NCBI RefSeq assembly: GCF_002367995.1
Contig: NZ_AP018207.1
Coordinates: 5,259,963-5,323,962 of the forward strand
Direction of reading: 5' to 3'
DNA: 64,000 nt
From: Calothrix brevissima NIES-22
GTDB taxonomy: Bacteria > Cyanobacteriota > Cyanobacteriia > Cyanobacteriales > Nostocaceae
Shown: piece by piece, positions 107 to 53,380 of the stretch
Position numbering within the stretch: the stretch's first letter is position 1
How the letters are laid out: each line of letters starts with the position of its first letter
Position numbers and translations under genes: made by a program
Notes under the pieces: generated by a model
The model's input: the letters and a program-made list of their open reading frames with translations, nothing else
What the model was told of the DNA's origin: nothing
Databases searched by the model: none

Positions 107-1729
107 ATGAATCAGCCCAATTGCGGGAGAGCAATTTTCAATTTTTCCCAAAGATTATCCGTGATGCTTTACCGGATGTTTGTGACTTTGCTAACTCTGG
201 TATTTTTGTGGAGTAGTTTACTTCCAGAGGTGGCGCTAGCCCAAACTACAGCACCTCCAGCGCCAAAAGTCCAGCCAAGTAGCAAAACTCCGACTTCGAT
301 TCAACCGTATCTAGATCGCGTCATCAAGCAGTTGACGGAGTTTCGCCTAGATAATGGTCTGAAGTTCATTGTTTTGGAACGCCATCAAGCCCCAGTAGTA
401 TCTTTTTTAACTTATGCTGATGTTGGCGGTGTGGATGAGCCAGATGGAAAAACTGGTGTAGCCCACTTTCTAGAACATTTGGCATTTAAGGGTACAAAGC
501 GTATTGGTACAAAAGACTACAATACAGAAAAACCACTATTAGACCAACTGCAACAGTTAGACACCAAAATTAGAGCTGCAAAAGCCGCAGGTAAAACAGA
601 GGAACTGGCGAAGCTACAAGCTGAGTTTGATCGGGTGGAATTGCAAGCAACCAAACTCAGCAAGCAAAATGAAATGGGACAAATTGTCGAACAAGCTGGA
701 GGTGTAGGCTTAAATGCCAATACTTCTACGGAGGCGACTCGTTATTTTTATAGCTTCCCCGCCAATAAGGTGGAATTGTGGATGTCTTTAGAATCGGAAC
801 GTTTTCTCGAACCTGTACTCAGCCGCGATTTTTATAAAGAGAAAGAGGTAATTCTAGAAGAACGGCGTTTGCGGGTAGAAAATTCCCCCATTGGCTTAAT
901 GATCGAAAAATTTATCGATGCAGCCTATAAAGTTCATCCCTACAGACGACCGGTGATTGGTTATGACCAGGATATCCGCAATTTGACACCGGATGATGTG
1001 CAAAAGTTTTTTAACAATTATTATGTACCGAGTAATTTAGCGATCGCAATTGTGGGTGATGTGAACCCCAATGAAGTCAAAAGGCTAGCGCAAATCTACT
1101 TCGGACGCTTCCCCGCAAAAACAAAAACTGTTCAGCCAATTCCTACAGAACCACCACAGGCGCAAACCAGAGAGGTAACTGTAGAATTACCTTCCCAACC
1201 TTGGTATTTAGAAGGTTATCATCGTCCAGCAATTACCCATCCCGATAATGCTGTGTATGAAATTATTGCTGGTTTATTAAGCAATGGACGCACATCGCGG
1301 TTGTATAAATCTTTAGTGGAACAGAAAAGATTGGCTTTAGCTGCTCAAGGTTATAGTGGTTTTCCTGGCGATAAATACCCAAACCTGATGTTATTTTATG
1401 CGCTGACAGCACCAGGACATACAGTTGATGAATTAGCCGCAGGTTTAGGCACAGAAATTGAAAAATTGAAAACTGAACCTGTCACCGATGCGGAATTGCA
1501 GCGTGTGAAAACCCAAGCTAGAGCAGATTTGTTACGCACCCTCGATTCTAATATGGGCATGGCGCAGCAGTTGTTGGAATATGAGGTAAAAACTGGCTCT
1601 TGGCGGAATTTGTTTAAGCAATTGGATGAAATTGCCGCAGTTACGGCTGCTGATGTGCAACGAGTAGCAAAAGCATCGTTTACCGCCGAAAATCGCACAA
1701 TTGGCAAGTTGTTGTCAAAACAGGGATGA
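107..1729 (+). CDS. Exported M16 zinc peptidase (active-type subunit)
   Basis: Secreted or periplasmic metallopeptidase of the M16 (pitrilysin/processing peptidase) family. An N-terminal hydrophobic segment ending in ALAQ (about residues 20-46) looks like a signal peptide; the start at residue 20 (164) is an alternative that gives a tidier signal. The inverted zinc motif HFLEH is at residues 120-124, and a further glutamate ligand lies near residue 229 in LESERF. Between them, residues 140-195 form an extra charged, coiled-coil-like insert that is absent in short M16 proteins. The C-terminal M16 domain follows from about residue 290. The stop overlaps the start of the next M16 gene (ATGA), so the two are almost certainly co-translated and probably form a heterodimer, as is usual for bacterial M16 pairs. 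Family call firm; substrate unknown. Confidence 0.93.
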   Translation: MNQPNCGRAIFNFSQRLSVMLYRMFVTLLTLVFLWSSLLPEVALAQTTAPPAPKVQPSSKTPTSIQPYLDRVIKQLTEFRLDNGLKFIVLERHQAPVVSFLTYADVGGVDEPDGKTGVAHFLEHLAFKGTKRIGTKDYNTEKPLLDQLQQLDTKIRAAKAAGKTEELAKLQAEFDRVELQATKLSKQNEMGQIVEQAGGVGLNANTSTEATRYFYSFPANKVELWMSLESERFLEPVLSRDFYKEKEVILEERRLRVENSPIGLMIEKFIDAAYKVHPYRRPVIGYDQDIRNLTPDDVQKFFNNYYVPSNLAIAIVGDVNPNEVKRLAQIYFGRFPAKTKTVQPIPTEPPQAQTREVTVELPSQPWYLEGYHRPAITHPDNAVYEIIAGLLSNGRTSRLYKSLVEQKRLALAAQGYSGFPGDKYPNLMLFYALTAPGHTVDELAAGLGTEIEKLKTEPVTDAELQRVKTQARADLLRTLDSNMGMAQQLLEYEVKTGSWRNLFKQLDEIAAVTAADVQRVAKASFTAENRTIGKLLSKQG

Positions 1730-48730: not shown

Positions 48731-49504
48731 TTAACTTTTATCTTCTTCGTCCAAAGGGAAAAACTCTTTATTTCTCCGGGAAAATGACCAAGCAATACCA
48801 TCAGGATCGCGGCTGCGACTCCATTCAGGAAAATCAGGATCGTTGCGCCGTTTATATACTGTACTGGAATAAACATTTAATCTCTTAGCCAGTTCTGATT
48901 GAATCAGAGAGCCAAAAACTAACTGTTTTTCCAAAGGAACTGTAACAGCTTCATGAGTTACCGGGGGTAACAATTCAGCTTCAGTTTCTACTGCTTCTTC
49001 TTCTACTTCTACTTCCGCTGCTTCGGCTTCAGGCTGCGTCTGTGGTAGCGTGGGTGCTAATAATACAGGCGCAGTCGGGACAAAAGATTTAGCCGGAAGT
49101 TCTTTAACTGGCTCACTACTTTCGAGTATGCTTCCCAAAATGGTGGCATTGATAAAGTAATAAACCAGATTGCCATCTTCCAAATTCTGAATACTCGCAC
49201 CAAATTCGCTGGCTTTCGTATCTAGGTAACGTTTGGCGACTGTTCCCGAAAAATTACCCTTAATTGCCAAGTCCATTGGCGTGACTTTACCTTGATTGTC
49301 CAGAACTAGACGATTGAAAATTGGATTAACTTGCCCACACCAGTTTTGCCATTGACGCCATTGCCAAAGATTAAAGCCGGTTAGCAAGAAAATCAAAGCT
49401 AGCAGAAATTTCCAAGTAGTTACCAGGAAAATAATCAAAAACGAGATGGGCAAAAGCAGAACGAGAAAAGCCTTCCCGCCGCCTTCTAATGTCTTTTCAC
49501 TCAT
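48731..49504 (-). CDS. Membrane protein with C-terminal putative HTH
   Basis: About 257 residues from the second Met (MSEKTLEGG). Two hydrophobic helices (about 12-48) anchor it. A conserved middle domain (about 60-125, including TPMDLAIKGNFSGTVAKRYLDTKASEFG) follows, then a long Glu/Ala/Val-rich acidic linker (about 150-185). The C-terminal 65 residues look like a helix-turn-helix (SELAKRLNVYSSTVYKRRNDPDFPEWS). A membrane-tethered DNA-binding regulator is conceivable. Family not recognised. Confidence 0.75.
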   Translation of the reverse strand: MSEKTLEGGGKAFLVLLLPISFLIIFLVTTWKFLLALIFLLTGFNLWQWRQWQNWCGQVNPIFNRLVLDNQGKVTPMDLAIKGNFSGTVAKRYLDTKASEFGASIQNLEDGNLVYYFINATILGSILESSEPVKELPAKSFVPTAPVLLAPTLPQTQPEAEAAEVEVEEEAVETEAELLPPVTHEAVTVPLEKQLVFGSLIQSELAKRLNVYSSTVYKRRNDPDFPEWSRSRDPDGIAWSFSRRNKEFFPLDEEDKS

Positions 49505-49519
49505 GCTCATTGCTGCCAA

Positions 49520-50083
49520 GTGAATTGTAAAAAAAGAAATAACTATTATCTTGGCAAAAATTGTGACATTTTTTTGTATATTTTGGCAAAGTCACGGCAA
49601 ATTTGTTGGAAAAATATAACATCAAGAATTTTTATACACTGTAACCAGACTGAATAATTGACAAAATATCTAGTCTATAGTGACGTTAAATCATGCTTTT
49701 TGCCAAAGAAAGCAGCTTTTGCCGTTAGCAATTCTTGGCAAAAATAGATACTACAGTGTTTATGTATACTTCGTCTAGGAAAAGCGATCGTAGAGACAGC
49801 AGAAAATTATCTTAGGCCTTACGGACACTCTACGAATTCTTGGCGTTCTTGGCGTCTTGGCGGTTCCATAAATTAAGGATTTGCGAAATTTTTGCGTAAG
49901 TCCTGTATCTTTAGCTGTCATTTCAAGAAATTGGATGAAACCAGCTGTAGTTGTAACTTGCTTATTTGTGTAGGCAATCAATTACAAAATTAGCGTCGGA
50001 GATACTTGACAACCTGTAATATAAATACTACATTAATAATACAAGGCGACATTCCCAAAGGAGTAAGCTTTTAACTGTCAACC
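49520..50083. other. Leader region of the Ro/Y RNA island
   Basis: AT-rich, with several TTGGCAAA/TTTGCCAA motifs near 49550-49600 and 49700-49745. The only strong element is the promoter at 50006-50034. The small minus-strand frame at 49775-49981 is not supported. Confidence 0.5.
50006..50034 (+). promoter_or_regulatory. Sigma70-type promoter of the Y RNA / rsr cluster
   Basis: TTGACA (50006-50011), a 17-base spacer and TACATT (50029-50034). Transcription would start near 50041, about 43 bases before the first tRNA-like Y RNA. No other promoter of this quality is seen before rsr, so the five RNAs and rsr may share one transcript. Confidence 0.7.
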
Positions 50084-50220
50084 GTAGCGGATAGCTCAAA
50101 TACCAGAGCGCCCACCTTGCCCGTCAGGGCCGAAATATCGAGGGTTATCGCAAATTACTTAACAACAAAAATCCTTGATTATAAGTTCTGGAGGTGTAGG
50201 TGAAAATCCTGCTCCGCTAC
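50084..50220 (+). ncRNA. tRNA-like Y RNA 1
   Basis: Outer stem GTAGCGGA/TCCGCTAC (50084-50091 with 50213-50220), D-arm stem GCTC/GAGC (50094-50097, 50106-50109) and T-arm stem GTAGG/CCTGC with a 7-base loop TGAAAAT that departs from TTCRANY. The D loop lacks the GG pair. The insert carries the hairpin GCCC-GTCA-GGGC (50119-50130) and the invariant GAGGGTTATCG (50140-50150). It is the most divergent of the five: the TTCAC box is absent. The GCCC/GGGC stem is a compensatory change from GCCT/AGGC in the others. Confidence 0.8.
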
Positions 50221-50253
50221 AATCAAACCTAATTTTTAATTTTGAATTTTTAT

Positions 50254-50376
50254 GTGGTGGGTAGCCAAGTGGTAAGGCGCTTATCCTTATTCACCTTTTG
50301 CCTGCAAAGGCCGACGAATTGAGGGTTATCGATTTAGGTTCGAGCGATCGCGGGTTCAAATCCCGCTCCACCACCA
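50254..50376 (+). ncRNA. tRNA-like Y RNA 2 (tRNA-Gln-like arms)
   Basis: Acceptor TGGTGGG/TCCACCA (50255-50261, 50367-50373) with an additional G-C pair at the end. The D region TAGCCAAGTGGTAAGGC is that of a bacterial tRNA-Gln, with G18-G19 kept. T arm GCGGG-TTCAAAT-CCCGC. The insert reads TCCTTATTCACC, hairpin GCCT-GCAA-AGGC (50300-50311), CCGACGA, GAGGGTTATCG (50321-50331). No anticodon loop can be found. Confidence 0.85.
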
Positions 50377-50400
50377 ACAATCTAATTTTGAATTCTTACT

Positions 50401-50541
50401 GGATGGGTAGCTCAATTTGGTAGAGCGTTGGATGGGTTAACACCCATAGTCCTTGGTTCACAACCTTGCCTGAAAAGGCCGACGATTCGAGGGTTATCGT
50501 CAATTCAAAAGTTGCAGGTTCAATTCCTGCCCCATCCGCCA
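50401..50541 (+). ncRNA. tRNA-like Y RNA 3, CCA encoded
   Basis: Acceptor GGATGGG/CCCATCC (50401-50407, 50531-50537), discriminator G, encoded CCA (50539-50541). D arm GCTC/GAGC with G-G, anticodon stem TTGGA/TTCAA (50428-50432, 50504-50508), 5-base variable loop AAGTT, T arm GCAGG-TTCAATT-CCTGC. The insert occupies the anticodon loop: hairpin TGGGT-TAAC-ACCCA, then GGTTCACAACC, hairpin GCCT-GAAA-AGGC (50468-50479), CCGACGA and GAGGGTTATCG (50489-50499). Confidence 0.88.
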
Positions 50542-50595
50542 AAATTTAATTTTCAATCATCCGAAAAACCTAGTACAAGCTCTGAATTTTTATAT

Positions 50596-50737
50596 GGATG
50601 GGTAGCTCAATTGGGTAGAGCATTGAACGGGTTAATTACCCGTAGTCCTTGGTTCACAACCTTGCCTGAAAAGGCCGACGAGTTGAGGGTTATCGCAACT
50701 TCAAAGGTTGTAGGTTCAAATCCTACCTCATCCACCA
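50596..50737 (+). ncRNA. tRNA-like Y RNA 4, CCA encoded
   Basis: Acceptor GGATGGG/CTCATCC (50596-50602, 50727-50733), discriminator A, encoded CCA (50735-50737). D arm GCTC/GAGC, anticodon stem TTGAA/TTCAA (50623-50627, 50700-50704), variable loop AGGTT, T arm GTAGG-TTCAAAT-CCTAC. In the anticodon loop: hairpin CGGGT-TAATT-ACCCG (50628-50642), GGTTCACAACC, GCCT-GAAA-AGGC (50664-50675), GAGGGTTATCG (50685-50695). Compared with RNA 3 the first hairpin and the T stem both differ by compensating base pairs. Confidence 0.88.
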
Positions 50738-50766
50738 AAATCTAATTTTGAATTTTGAATTGTTAT

Positions 50767-50891
50767 GTGGCAGGTAGCTCAGTGGTAGAGCGCCTAAAAC
50801 ATCCTTGTTCACCCCTTGCCTGCAAAGGCCGAAGAATGAGGGTTATCGCCTTCCAAGCGGGATGTCGCAGGTTCGAGTCCTGCCCTGCCAC
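50767..50891 (+). ncRNA. tRNA-like Y RNA 5
   Basis: Acceptor TGGCAGG/CCTGCCA (50768-50774, 50884-50890) with an extra G-C pair, D arm GCTC-AGTGGTA-GAGC, T arm GCAGG-TTCGAGT-CCTGC. ACATCC-TTG (50799-50807) pairs with CAA-GCG-GGATGT (50854-50865), replacing the anticodon stem. The insert has TTCACC, GCCT-GCAA-AGGC (50818-50829) and GAGGGTTATCG (50838-50848). It ends only 37 bases before the rsr start codon. Confidence 0.86.
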
Positions 50892-50896
50892 CTTTC

Positions 50897-50919
50897 ATTT
50901 TGCCCGCAAGGGCCGGGAG
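50897..50919 (+). promoter_or_regulatory. Y-RNA-like hairpin in the rsr leader
   Basis: TTTTGCCC-GCAA-GGGCCGGGAG: the same GCCC-GNNA-GGGC hairpin plus CCG as in the Y modules (50902-50913), lying directly against the GGGAG ribosome-binding site (50915-50919) of rsr. Candidate operator by which Ro could sense its own level. Confidence 0.55.
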
Positions 50920-50927
50920 ATGAAGTT

Positions 50928-51728
50928 ATGAATTATAATTTTTTTACTAAAAAGAAAACTAATACACCGCAAACTCAGCCTATCCCCGGACGGGAAGCAG
51001 AGATGATTCAAGGACGTTCCGGCGGCTATATGTTTGATGCGGGTATTTGGAAAATGCTGCGCCGTTGTCTGTTGATTGGTACAGCTAAAAGCACTTACTA
51101 CGCCGGAAAGCAGGAATTAACAGAAGATTTTGTTACCGTTATCACACAAGCTGTGGCGGAAAATCCAGGGCGAGTAGCAGAGGAAATTCTCTATGCTAGC
51201 GATGGCCGCGCCATCAACAACAGTGCGCCGATATTGGCATTAGTGTTGCTATCGATGGGTGAAACACCAGAAGCTAAAAAGGCGTTTGGTGAGATATTTG
51301 GGCAAGTTGTACGTACAGGTAGCCACTTCTACGAATGGCTGAACTACACTAAATCTCTGCGCGGATTTGGTAAGGTGGTGCGCGAAGCTGGGAAAACTTG
51401 GCTATCTCGTGAAGATGTTAAAGGTTTGGCTTATCAACTGTTGAAATATCAACAGCGTCAAGGCTTTTCTCACCGAGATGCATTGCGATTATTCCATGTC
51501 AAACCACCTACAGAAAATCACCGCCAATTATATGAGTGGGTTGTCAAAGGTTGGGAAGATTTACCCGCCGATATTCCTTCGGAAGCCTTGGCGCAGATTT
51601 GGTGGTATGAATGGCTCAAGCGCAATCCTAGCGAAACTCATACAGCGATCGCACAAGGACGGCTAACTCACGAAATGGTTAAGAGTGCTTTAGATGTAGC
51701 AGTTGCAAAATTAAATAGTGAAAACTAA
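50928..51728 (+). CDS. rsr: Ro60 orthologue Rsr, N-terminal TROVE piece
   Basis: About 266 residues from the ATG at 50928 (MNYNFFTKK), eight bases after GGGAG. An open frame extends upstream but runs through Y RNA 5, so it is not coding. This is the first part of the TROVE HEAT-repeat ring: FDAGIWKMLRRCLLIGTAKSTYY, GRAINNSAPILALVLLS and YEWLNYTKSLRGFGKVV match bacterial Ro proteins, which bind Y RNAs and misfolded RNA ends and work with exonucleases. The frame stops after GRLTHEMV plus 15 further residues (KSALDVAVAKLNSEN), short of the end of the TROVE domain. The remainder is encoded at 52499-53380, beyond an opposing HNH gene. Confidence 0.9.
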   Translation: MNYNFFTKKKTNTPQTQPIPGREAEMIQGRSGGYMFDAGIWKMLRRCLLIGTAKSTYYAGKQELTEDFVTVITQAVAENPGRVAEEILYASDGRAINNSAPILALVLLSMGETPEAKKAFGEIFGQVVRTGSHFYEWLNYTKSLRGFGKVVREAGKTWLSREDVKGLAYQLLKYQQRQGFSHRDALRLFHVKPPTENHRQLYEWVVKGWEDLPADIPSEALAQIWWYEWLKRNPSETHTAIAQGRLTHEMVKSALDVAVAKLNSEN

Positions 51729-51736
51729 AAAGATTC

Positions 51737-52333
51737 TTATATCCATTCATTTTTAGGAGGAATTAAACCTAATTTTTGATTTGTTATCGCATTTTCTCCA
51801 TATAATTCAGTCATGATTTTATCAGCATCATAGGCTGCATCATGAGGATTTTCTCTAGCTTTTCCAAAGTAGTCCTTGATTCTTCTCCCATTTTGCCAAT
51901 GTGGAACACGAGCCATATATTTTACAATGCCTTTGTGCTGATAAAGTCTTACATAACGAAATCCAGTTGGATTTCTGACTAGACGATCCTTTGCAATATC
52001 CATGTCAAATGCTGTTGCTTTTCTTTTATGAGGACTGTTTCTAATCTTCTGGACATTACAAGCTATATGACTGAAGGTCACATTATCTAAGTTAAAATAT
52101 GCTTCTTTTGGGTCTTCAGCACAAGACCAAGGTTTTTTATGCTCAATACTGAATTCATCATATTTAGTAATTTCTTCTCCACATTGCCAGCAAATGTTTT
52201 CACCTGCATTGTTGACATATTGAAACAAGAGCAGTTTAACTAATTTTCTTTGTGCAGAAGAATTATGTGTTCCCAGCTTATCAAAATTTCTGTCAGCTAG
52301 GCGTTTTGCACCTTTTTTAGAGGGAGATTTCAC
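51737..52333 (-). CDS. HNH endonuclease with AP2-like C-terminal domain
   Basis: A 198-residue protein on the strand opposite to rsr, between its two pieces. It has a basic N-terminus, an HNH core with CWQCG (about 48), FSIEHKKPW (about 65) and SHIACNVQKIRN (about 88), then a C-terminal part (about 120-180, FRYVRLYQHKGIVKYMARV...DAAYDADKIM) resembling the AP2 DNA-binding fold often joined to HNH homing nucleases. It ends 8 bases from the stop of the N-terminal piece. Lower GC content than the neighbours suggests recent arrival. Probably the mobile agent that split rsr. Confidence 0.85.
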   Translation of the reverse strand: MKSPSKKGAKRLADRNFDKLGTHNSSAQRKLVKLLLFQYVNNAGENICWQCGEEITKYDEFSIEHKKPWSCAEDPKEAYFNLDNVTFSHIACNVQKIRNSPHKRKATAFDMDIAKDRLVRNPTGFRYVRLYQHKGIVKYMARVPHWQNGRRIKDYFGKARENPHDAAYDADKIMTELYGENAITNQKLGLIPPKNEWI

Positions 52334-52498
52334 TTCTTATTAAAAAATAAATACTGAGGGTTTATGGAATTACATTGTCTCATAAAAATAAAATTCTAAC
52401 AAGCAAACAAAGACATGTTAATACAATAATATCAATAATAGAAAATTAGCATTATTGTATGGATTAAAATCACAGATAGCAAAAATTTTTAGAATAAT
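52334..52498. other. AT-rich gap upstream of rsr C-terminal piece
   Basis: Very AT-rich. It contains the HNH promoter on the minus strand and the leader of the C-terminal rsr piece on the plus strand. I see no group I or group II intron core and no good ribosome-binding site before 52499. Confidence 0.45.
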
Positions 52499-53380
52499 AT
52501 GTTAGTAAATTTCGATCGCAAAAAATACACGATAAATGATTTTTTAGACAAATCTGCTTGGCAATTACTATTTCAAGAAATGCCAATAGGCGCAATGCTG
52601 CGTAACCTTGGTTCCTTGACAGAATTGGGTGTATTACGCGCTGATGAAAGTGCTAATATTTTGCGTGTAGAAAGTGTTCTCAACAAGCAAGAACATCTGC
52701 GTAAAGGTCGTATCCATCCGATTGATGTTTTAAAAGCTTTGAAAACTTATCAATCTGGTGGGAAATTAGGACGCAGCCTGAAAACATGGGAACCAGTCCC
52801 TCGGATTGTAGACATTTTAGAGAAGGCGCTAGAACTATCTTTTGATGTTGTACAACCCACAGGTAAAGTTTTTATGCACGCTGTGGATGTATCTGGCTCT
52901 ATGTCTTGGGGTGTGGTTGATTCAGTTGGCTTAAGCTGCTGTGAAATTGCGACTACAATGGCGCTAGTCACAGCCAAAGCTGAGAAAAACTACATGATTC
53001 GCGGCTTTGCAACGGAATTTAGAGAATTAGGTATCACAGCCAAAGATACTTTTAGTTCTGCACTTAGCAAAGCTAGCAATCAAAACTTTGGCGGTACAGA
53101 TGCTTCTGTGGCTTACGACTGGATGATTCAAAATAAGTTCAAAGCTGATGTCATTTGCTTTTGGACAGATAACGAGTCATGGGCTGGTTATAAGCATCCT
53201 AGTCAAGCCTTGGCGCAGTATCGCGAGAAAGTAAATCCCAATGCTAAGGCAGTGTATGTCACTCTGACACCTTACAACATTACCTTAGTAGATCCAAAAG
53301 ATCCCCTATCTTGGGATTTAGCAGGGTTCGATCCAGGAACGCCTCGCATCATCCAGATGCTAGCTACTGGTGAAGTTTAA
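52499..53380 (+). CDS. rsr: Ro60 orthologue Rsr, C-terminal TROVE/vWA piece
   Basis: 293 residues. After about 14 extra N-terminal residues (MLVNFDRKKYTIND), the end of the TROVE domain continues (SAWQLLFQEMPIGAMLRNLGSLTELGVL), followed by the von Willebrand A domain. The metal site is complete: DVSGSMS, GGTDASVAYDW and FWTDNESW. Together with the first piece the length (about 560) is slightly above a one-piece bacterial Ro protein (about 530-540), so little is missing. No stops or frameshifts occur inside, which argues that it is still expressed, either as a separate chain or after removal of the insert. Confidence 0.9.
   Translation: MLVNFDRKKYTINDFLDKSAWQLLFQEMPIGAMLRNLGSLTELGVLRADESANILRVESVLNKQEHLRKGRIHPIDVLKALKTYQSGGKLGRSLKTWEPVPRIVDILEKALELSFDVVQPTGKVFMHAVDVSGSMSWGVVDSVGLSCCEIATTMALVTAKAEKNYMIRGFATEFRELGITAKDTFSSALSKASNQNFGGTDASVAYDWMIQNKFKADVICFWTDNESWAGYKHPSQALAQYREKVNPNAKAVYVTLTPYNITLVDPKDPLSWDLAGFDPGTPRIIQMLATGEV

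Follow-up and report, generated by a model that had tools for sequence, protein, structure and literature searches.

Candidate tRNA-framed Y RNAs encoded in tandem beside Ro60 in Calothrix brevissima NIES-22

Which RNAs are encoded directly upstream of the Ro60 gene of the cyanobacterium Calothrix brevissima NIES-22, where tandem elements combine features of transfer RNA (tRNA) with those of Y RNAs, the noncoding partners of Ro60, a protein of RNA quality control? The question was addressed in a window of 64,000 nucleotides (nt; assembly GCF_002367995.1, contig NZ_AP018207.1, positions 5,259,963-5,323,962, forward strand), in which an array of five units was read directly from the sequence on the plus strand at 50084-50891 (window numbering throughout). 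We consider it likely that the units are tRNA-framed Y RNAs, in which an otherwise complete tRNA holds the Ro stem within its anticodon arm (at about positions 29/30 in the aligned classes). The array would probably be co-transcribed with Ro60 and cut out by tRNA enzymes, and YrlA, a bacterial Y RNA, would be the same design in circularly permuted form.

Architecture of the units

The five units and the best resolved Y module are listed below (bp, base pairs).

50084-50220, plus strand: u1, type 1, with an 8-bp acceptor, a D arm and a T arm without TTC
50254-50374, plus strand: u2, type A, with D arm GCCAAGTGGTAAGGC
50400-50541, plus strand: u3, type B, with a 5-bp anticodon stem, an additional hairpin, a Y module and encoded CCA
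50595-50737, plus strand: u4, type B, with anticodon stem TTGAA/TTCAA, a Y module and encoded CCA
50767-50891, plus strand: u5, type C, with the 8-bp acceptor GTGGCAGG/CCTGCCAC
50803-50847, plus strand: Y module of u5, Ro-binding type as judged by sequence, with helix strand CCTTGTTC, CTTGCC, a GNRA hairpin, CCGA, GAATGAGG and GTTATC

In all five units the acceptor strands paired over 7-8 bp inside the unit and both tRNA-type arms (D and T) were present; between the two arms the units carried the same Y blocks, namely CTTGCC or TTTTGCC, a GCCY-GNNA-RGGC hairpin, CCGA and a helix strand followed by GAGGGTTATCG. The Ro-binding motif of Y RNAs consists of GGNCCGA...GUUAUC with a CUUG strand opposite, and this arrangement is present in the units. 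The D and T arms are of the tRNA type, u1 lacking the elbow bases; this unit forms a separate class with no TTC in the T loop, no GG in the D loop and a different closure of the Y helix, whose 3' strand CACCTTGCC lies immediately 3' of the D arm and which closes downstream with CCTTGAT. In the type B units (u3, u4) the insert is enclosed by the 5-bp anticodon stem. Anticodon-like hairpins were found in u2 (CGA-TTTAGGT-TCG, 50330-50342) and in u5 (CGC-CTTCCAA-GCG, 50847-50859).

The main set of relatives comprised the relaxed cores in the fetched loci (n=209), of which 200, spread over 69 of 90 loci, were parsed as cloverleaves, with seven of seven acceptor pairs in 188 of these 200. Direct reading and these relatives confirmed the five tandem units with acceptor stem, D arm, T arm and Y module described in the first-pass annotation of the window; its frame and Y module stood, the anticodon-like stem-loops of u2 and u5 having been missed. 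Acceptor pairing averaged 6.91 of 7 within the same unit, a figure favoured by a parser that maximises pairing, versus 5.81 of 7 when the following unit supplied the partner strand (131 pairs of neighbours). Both the D-loop GG and the T-loop TTC were kept in 154 of 165 units outside type 1 and both were lost in 31 of 35 type 1 units, a type that, where present, was always the first parsed unit of its locus (35/35). In the Y core, CCGA was present in 199/200 and a CTTGC-like strand in 200/200 parsed units; the search pattern itself required GTTATC and nearly CCGA. Palindromic repeats of about 30 nt, resembling small mobile repeats, were observed in the T loop of the last units of loci L038 and L048, the second unit of L043 and the first of L047.

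The acceptor end was marked by a G preceding the 7-bp stem opposite C73 (G-1:C73) in 169 of the 200 units, a feature found in only 2 of the 91 ordinary tRNA sequences of this genome, both tRNA-His. CCA was encoded in 101/200 units versus 21/91 ordinary tRNAs, with 9/69 in the last unit of a locus and 92/131 in the other units; encoded CCA as a sharp contrast to ordinary tRNAs was rejected, since 21 of the latter also encode it. A search for the tRNA source of the unit bodies returned mixed nearest ordinary tRNAs (Val/Ala, Arg, His/Gln/Cys, Leu) with modest scores, and several tRNA origins are possible as judged from these matches. Two long arrays of ordinary tRNA genes were also noted (G000, C1:8082288-8086800 and C5:170156-172290), one of them on a smaller contig.

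Covariation and the position of the Y module

GTTATC was continued by a stem of 3 bp closing a loop of 7 nt in 89 of the 200 units, versus a mean of 3.6 and a maximum of 10 in 200 shuffles. Among those 89, U33 was present in 87 and a purine at position 37 in 88, and positions 34-36 used all four bases; related units are not independent in these counts. An alignment, A2, was then assembled from the anticodon-hairpin classes, types B, D and 1 being left out: 105 units passed the length and pairing filter, giving 47 distinct loop regions, of which 41 were used.

In A2, 97.5% of the cells were paired and double-sided changes occurred in 17 of 34 pairs versus 8.6 in shuffles. Pair 31:39 was CG in 18, AU in 14, UA in 7 and GC in 2 units, and pair 28:42 was CG in 22 and UA in 19, both being paired in 41/41. 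The Y helix was maintained in 94.5% of the cells, and RNAalifold, run unaided, predicted the anticodon hairpin, the Y helix and the tRNA arms. The covariation and the consensus fold therefore place the Y module, at the level of the alignment, at about 29/30 of a complete tRNA in the classes aligned. The ~30-nt repeats in the T loop of some relatives' units would suit degenerate tRNA pseudogenes that took up a Y element by chance, a reading that we find hardly credible given the strong compensatory covariation of A2 and the conservation across several families.

tRNA recognition and the intron question

The same features raise the possibility of intron-bearing tRNA genes, from which the Y module would be excised and the halves joined to decoding tRNAs, the excised piece perhaps being the Y RNA. 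Rfam tRNA (RF00005) scored u2, u3 and u4 above gathering (40.7, 52.5 and 55 bits) with the middle as an insert. ARAGORN called none of the five window units and 0/200 units unspliced, versus 131/200 with the insert deleted in silico, of which 109 then had an ordinary anticodon of three bases; with introns allowed it made calls in 153/200, and anticodons and intron places were scattered. ARAGORN on spliced units was rejected as a test of the splice site, because many shifted cuts score equally. The first-pass annotation had held that assignment to intron-bearing tRNAs by a covariance search would speak against Y RNAs: this is in part what was observed, Rfam scoring three units as insert-bearing tRNAs and ARAGORN calling tRNAs once the insert had been deleted, although the ARAGORN test is blind to where a splice site would lie.

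The intron reading further draws on the U33 and R37 features of the anticodon loops, on two genes for the ligase RtcB at other places in the genome and on the tRNA-Gly(TCC) of Nostoc PCC 7107, reported in PMC5733544 to carry a group I intron at nt 39-87. Within 49900-52600 no match to a group I intron core was obtained at E<=5, and the sole intron-family match, to a plastid group II intron (19 nt, E 2, far below gathering), lies inside the HNH region described below, outside the units, and is at chance level. An insert of this size is, moreover, too short for a group I intron. The loops differ at the last array position, G-1:C73, the mark of tRNA-His, occurs in 169/200 units regardless of the anticodon, and ordinary tRNAs with 45 anticodons are already present. 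Given that the units go with Ro60, that their anticodons drift and that their acceptor identity does not match, ordinary intron-bearing tRNAs are disfavoured, and we regard this explanation as improbable.

The retention of U33/R37 loops with varied anticodons would also be expected of decoys or sensors of tRNA damage, whose intact anticodon loops bait anticodon nucleases, with Ro60 and a nuclease partner clearing the cut copies. According to PMC7790460, Salmonella Ro60 and Y RNAs belong to an operon for RNA repair that is responsive to cut tRNAs, and its authors suggest that YrlA may competitively inhibit the nuclease; the same paper reports, on the other side, that no Salmonella YrlA fragments were detected. 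We consider a decoy role unlikely.

Spread and linkage to Ro60

The core pattern was found in 72 of the 192 genomes of the family of the window, in one to five copies each, with 0 in the reversed control in every row, and the claim that the arrangement is not due to chance was thus borne out. A match to TROVE, the Ro60 domain, was present in 71 of these 72 genomes (tables compared by eye), the remaining one being G106, whose hit sits at a contig edge; over the whole family TROVE occurred in 106/192. For the 35 family genomes with Ro60 and without the strict pattern, 34 loci from 33 genomes were fetched, and relaxed cores were recovered in 13 of them and model hits in 16 more.

The model used, R1, is a covariance model built from the 41 sequences of A2, including u2, u5 and many family loci. 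The members u2 and u5 scored 123.6 and 148.3 bits, and the non-members u3 and u4 scored 65 and 57.6 bits, u4 being counted as no higher than ordinary tRNAs reach; R1 matches of ordinary tRNA length (~76 nt) scored up to 56.7 bits. Units with a best E below 1e-9 were detected in 32 of 386 Cyanobacteriota genomes (21 of the family, 8 of the rest of the order and 3 of the rest of the class). All 32 lie within the 39 genomes with vWA_Ro60 over cut-off, and none of the 347 other genomes had units (tables compared by eye); about nine candidates were scored per genome under stricter filters, so that negatives are soft and single misses are possible. In all 11 loci retrieved for unit hits from beyond the family, Ro60 was located ~200 nt or less downstream on the same strand. 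Culturable strains that carry an array include Nostoc carneum NIES-2107 and Chlorogloeopsis fritschii PCC 6912. The conservation of the units and their linkage to Ro60 are thus established at the genomic level, and this co-occurrence also counts against intron-bearing tRNAs.

A pattern scan of one genome per species (84,980 species) returned 73 stretches, of which 72 bore cyanobacterial titles and one came from a Chloroflexi metagenome-assembled genome (MAG; locus L246). The scan of viral contigs gave three stretches, two with identical model scores. R1 scored the units of the MAG and of the three viral stretches at 72-101 bits, and Ro60 reading frames were present in all four. In nine further phage Ro60 loci R1 peaked at 43.5 bits, no more than tRNAs reach. 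A blastn search of plasmids with the array gave no match.

The Ro60 gene and its leader

Only 36 nt separate the end of u5 from the Ro60 start codon at 50928. The features around the array are as follows.

50006-50034, plus strand: candidate sigma-70-like promoter TTGACA-17-TACATT, 5' of the array, from a consensus scan alone
50892-50930, plus strand: Y-like Ro60 leader hairpin TTTGCCC-GCAA-GGGCCGGGAG, with Shine-Dalgarno GGGAG at 50915-50919, ending at the ATG
50928-51728, plus strand: N-terminal part of Ro60 (TROVE), 266 amino acids; Pfam TROVE E 1.9e-7, Xenopus Ro60 1YVP E 3.2e-23
51737-52333, minus strand: HNH-like open reading frame (ORF) between the Ro60 parts; Pfam HNH 19.6 bits, under the cut-off of 21.4
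52499-53380, plus strand: C-terminal part of Ro60 (TROVE end and vWA_Ro60), 293 amino acids; vWA_Ro60 E 1.6e-39

The position of the array beside Ro60, as first described, holds here and in the conserved linkage of the relatives, but this genome has the Ro60 gene in two parts, where relatives such as L264 (Nostoc carneum) have one continuous ORF. Ro60 retains the stretch KYxQRxGxSHxDxLRLxHxKP, aligned with Xenopus Ro60 1YVP, which we take to be a Y RNA contact. Promoter-like sites in 49500-51000 numbered 4 versus 3.4 expected in shuffles, a count no higher than shuffles, and a sequence scan of the interval between array and Ro60 found no terminator-like site.

TTTCATTTTTGCCCGCAAGGGCCGGGAGATGAAG or a variant stands directly 5' of the Ro60 ATG in most relatives with a start found (of 102 loci scanned, 71 had a recognised start and gave 66 distinct upstream sequences, the start not being found in 31). 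Pairs were counted in 61 of the 66 sequences, five mostly divergent ones being left out (L035, L091, L098, L104 and L114). The hairpin was 99.6% paired, and 13 of its 56 distinct rows carried a C-G/U-A double change. Double changes were few in the lower helix, which was 86.6% paired; the count of pairs showing such a change was 3, not above shuffles (2.1). The leader can be likened to the Y module, with the Shine-Dalgarno sequence in the corresponding internal loop, and Ro60 might possibly exert feedback on its own mRNA through this Y-like element.

YrlA and the permuted form

The first-pass annotation had set the acceptor stem of the units against YrlA. This contrast had to be abandoned, as the Rfam YrlA consensus (RF02553) also contains an acceptor-like stem; its alignment runs from the Y 5' strand through the T arm, a closed acceptor and the D arm to the Y 3' strand, and the real difference is one of topology. 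Opening a unit at its Y hairpin and joining its acceptor strands by a loop gives the YrlA order: in the unit itself the acceptor strands are predicted to pair with each other, with the Y module internal, instead of the ends forming the Ro stem. A review assigns D, T and acceptor arms to YrlA (PMC8394870) and the bacterial Y RNA of PDB 6CU1 is superposed on tRNA by circular permutation (PMC11472068).

The array could accordingly be read as ordinary YrlA in another frame, with transcripts running from the Y 5' strand of one unit to the Y 3' strand of the next, and the Rfam YrlA hits of 46.9, 37.6 and 23.9 bits do bridge neighbouring units. All three are below gathering (69 bits), a range in which plain tandem tRNAs reach 44-45 bits (L065, L066); the acceptors pair within units (6.91 versus 5.81 of 7), and a D arm opens the array and a T arm ends it. 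We therefore hold this alternative to be very improbable. The YrlA hits were also rejected as proof of homology, 8 of 14 control genomes giving hits too, and the YrlA cut-off was reached in 0/386 genomes of the phylum under the stricter filters. The covariance check suggested at the outset thus left YrlA below gathering (best 46.9 bits), with R1 finding units in 32/386 genomes, all with Ro60; as a whole the initial reading of a tRNA frame with a Ro-type Y module, in tandem and beside Ro60, stands, now with conservation and covariation, and its YrlA contrast falls.

Both topologies were read by eye as neighbours in some loci. Before Ro60, viral contig L281 carries a canonical Y-like element, a tRNA-framed unit, a permuted element and a second canonical element; the canonical elements scored 29.9 and 30.4 bits with RF01656, both under gathering (38), and the permuted element had no Rfam YrlA match at E<=1. 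L246 shows two tRNA-framed units followed by a permuted element without D arm (RF01656 37.4 bits, slightly under gathering). Blastn of the array against phages gave one 42-nt match, to Microbacterium phage Big4, in which a permuted element follows two tRNA-framed units of lower score (41.5 and 24.5 bits, no more than tRNAs reach); the permuted element and u5 have a 42-nt stretch in common, 93% identical. An annotated tRNA-Ser(cga) of Big4 (ON637770.1; L297 384-451) resembles part of a permuted Y RNA beside the two tRNA-framed units. A YrlA-like permuted element was also noted near Ro60 in another class of the phylum (L072 of genome G230, ~1440-1680, minus strand).

Seven permuted elements were inspected (L281, L246, Big4, Myrna, ScoobyDoobyDoo and two in Sixama). 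ACCA is kept, by eye, at the acceptor-closing loop in four of them (L281, Myrna, ScoobyDoobyDoo and the first of Sixama), and several permuted elements, including some phage ones, show a 7-nt anticodon-like loop. At E<=0.01 Rfam YrlA matched only Big4 (31.7 bits) and the second Sixama element (46.8 bits), both below gathering. The ACCA remnants fit a permuted form that descended from a tRNA gene with encoded CCA, and a tandem array offers both processing frames. It may be suggested that YrlA descended from tRNA-framed Y RNAs when the processing frame of tandem arrays shifted, tandem duplication thus giving the circular permutation. The units would still be seen as tRNAs, trimmed by RNase P, ended with CCA, perhaps charged by histidyl-tRNA synthetase through G-1:C73, and their anticodon loop would be a real one; through the Y arm, Ro60 would hold a live tRNA as sensor or bait for tRNA damage, with the mRNA leader mimicking the Y arm for feedback. 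As Rfam misses most of the permuted elements read by eye, we rate this extended scenario as rather doubtful.

Proposed processing and its weight

For the tRNA-framed Y RNAs themselves, the array and Ro60 would form one transcript, from which RNase P would cut the 5' end of each unit and RNase Z, or trimming with CCA addition, would produce the 3' end, so that excision of the units would release a Ro60 mRNA that retains its own leader. The mature units may then bind Ro60 and act as a scaffold joining it to a partner, by analogy with Deinococcus, where a Y RNA tethers Rsr, a Ro60 relative, to PNPase according to PMC7790460 and PMC8394870.

Several observations weigh against this interpretation. 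Five of the 34 Ro60 loci fetched in the family were without any unit above tRNA level, and seven of the 39 Ro60 genomes of the phylum had no units (G126, the fragment G512, G209, G211, G219, G228 and G230). Minimum free energy folds of single sequences do not always yield the proposed fold (for u5, -40.2 against -46.8 kcal/mol). At L065 and L066 the sub-threshold YrlA hits (45 and 44.4 bits) fall on plain tandem tRNAs, so that such hits are no evidence of homology, and Rfam either leaves the canonical Y and permuted elements of the viral and MAG loci unmatched or scores them below gathering. Finally, the Ro60 frame of the window is split (51729-52498) by the antisense HNH-like ORF.

In the literature covered, the reason for tRNA mimicry in bacterial Y RNAs, and for its permutation, is without explanation. 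The origin of YrlA would become testable through a form that is not permuted, has complete tRNA ends, goes with Ro60 and apparently occurs beside the permuted one, and the tRNA enzymes (RNase P, the CCA enzyme, aminoacyl-tRNA synthetases and anticodon nucleases) provide a handle on the use of the tRNA domain by Ro60. The circular permutation between YrlA and tRNA is already known; the unpermuted form and its occurrence beside the permuted one appear to be new, our literature search, whose coverage did not extend to the principal YrlA papers, having found no description of tRNA-framed Y RNAs.

Comparison with known systems

One printed annotation would probably be corrected by these results. 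The motifs TTxxC, CTTGxCT, AAGxC and GAAGAAT given for the intron of the Nostoc PCC 7107 tRNA-Gly(TCC) match the type C unit u5; that tRNA is interpreted as carrying a group I intron, and the accessible part of PMC5733544 draws no link to Ro60 or Y RNA. Its resemblance to u5 suggests that the supposed intron may be part of an unrecognised tRNA-framed Y unit.

With tRNA (RF00005) the units share, as parsed here, the whole cloverleaf, the elbow GG/TTC in most units and CCA encoded in 101/200; they differ in the Y insert in the anticodon arm, the drifting anticodon and the 8-bp His-like acceptor end. Canonical Y RNAs, namely the Y RNA/nematode stem-bulge RNA (sbRNA) family (RF01656) and the Deinococcus Y RNA (RF01053), have GGCCGA...GGGTTATC with CTTG opposite in common with the units, but lack a tRNA frame and end at the Ro stem. 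YrlA is similar in the Ro-binding motif, the D arm, the T arm, the acceptor-like stem and a gene beside Ro60, whereas it ends at the Ro stem and has a closed acceptor, the units having tRNA ends and an internal Y module.
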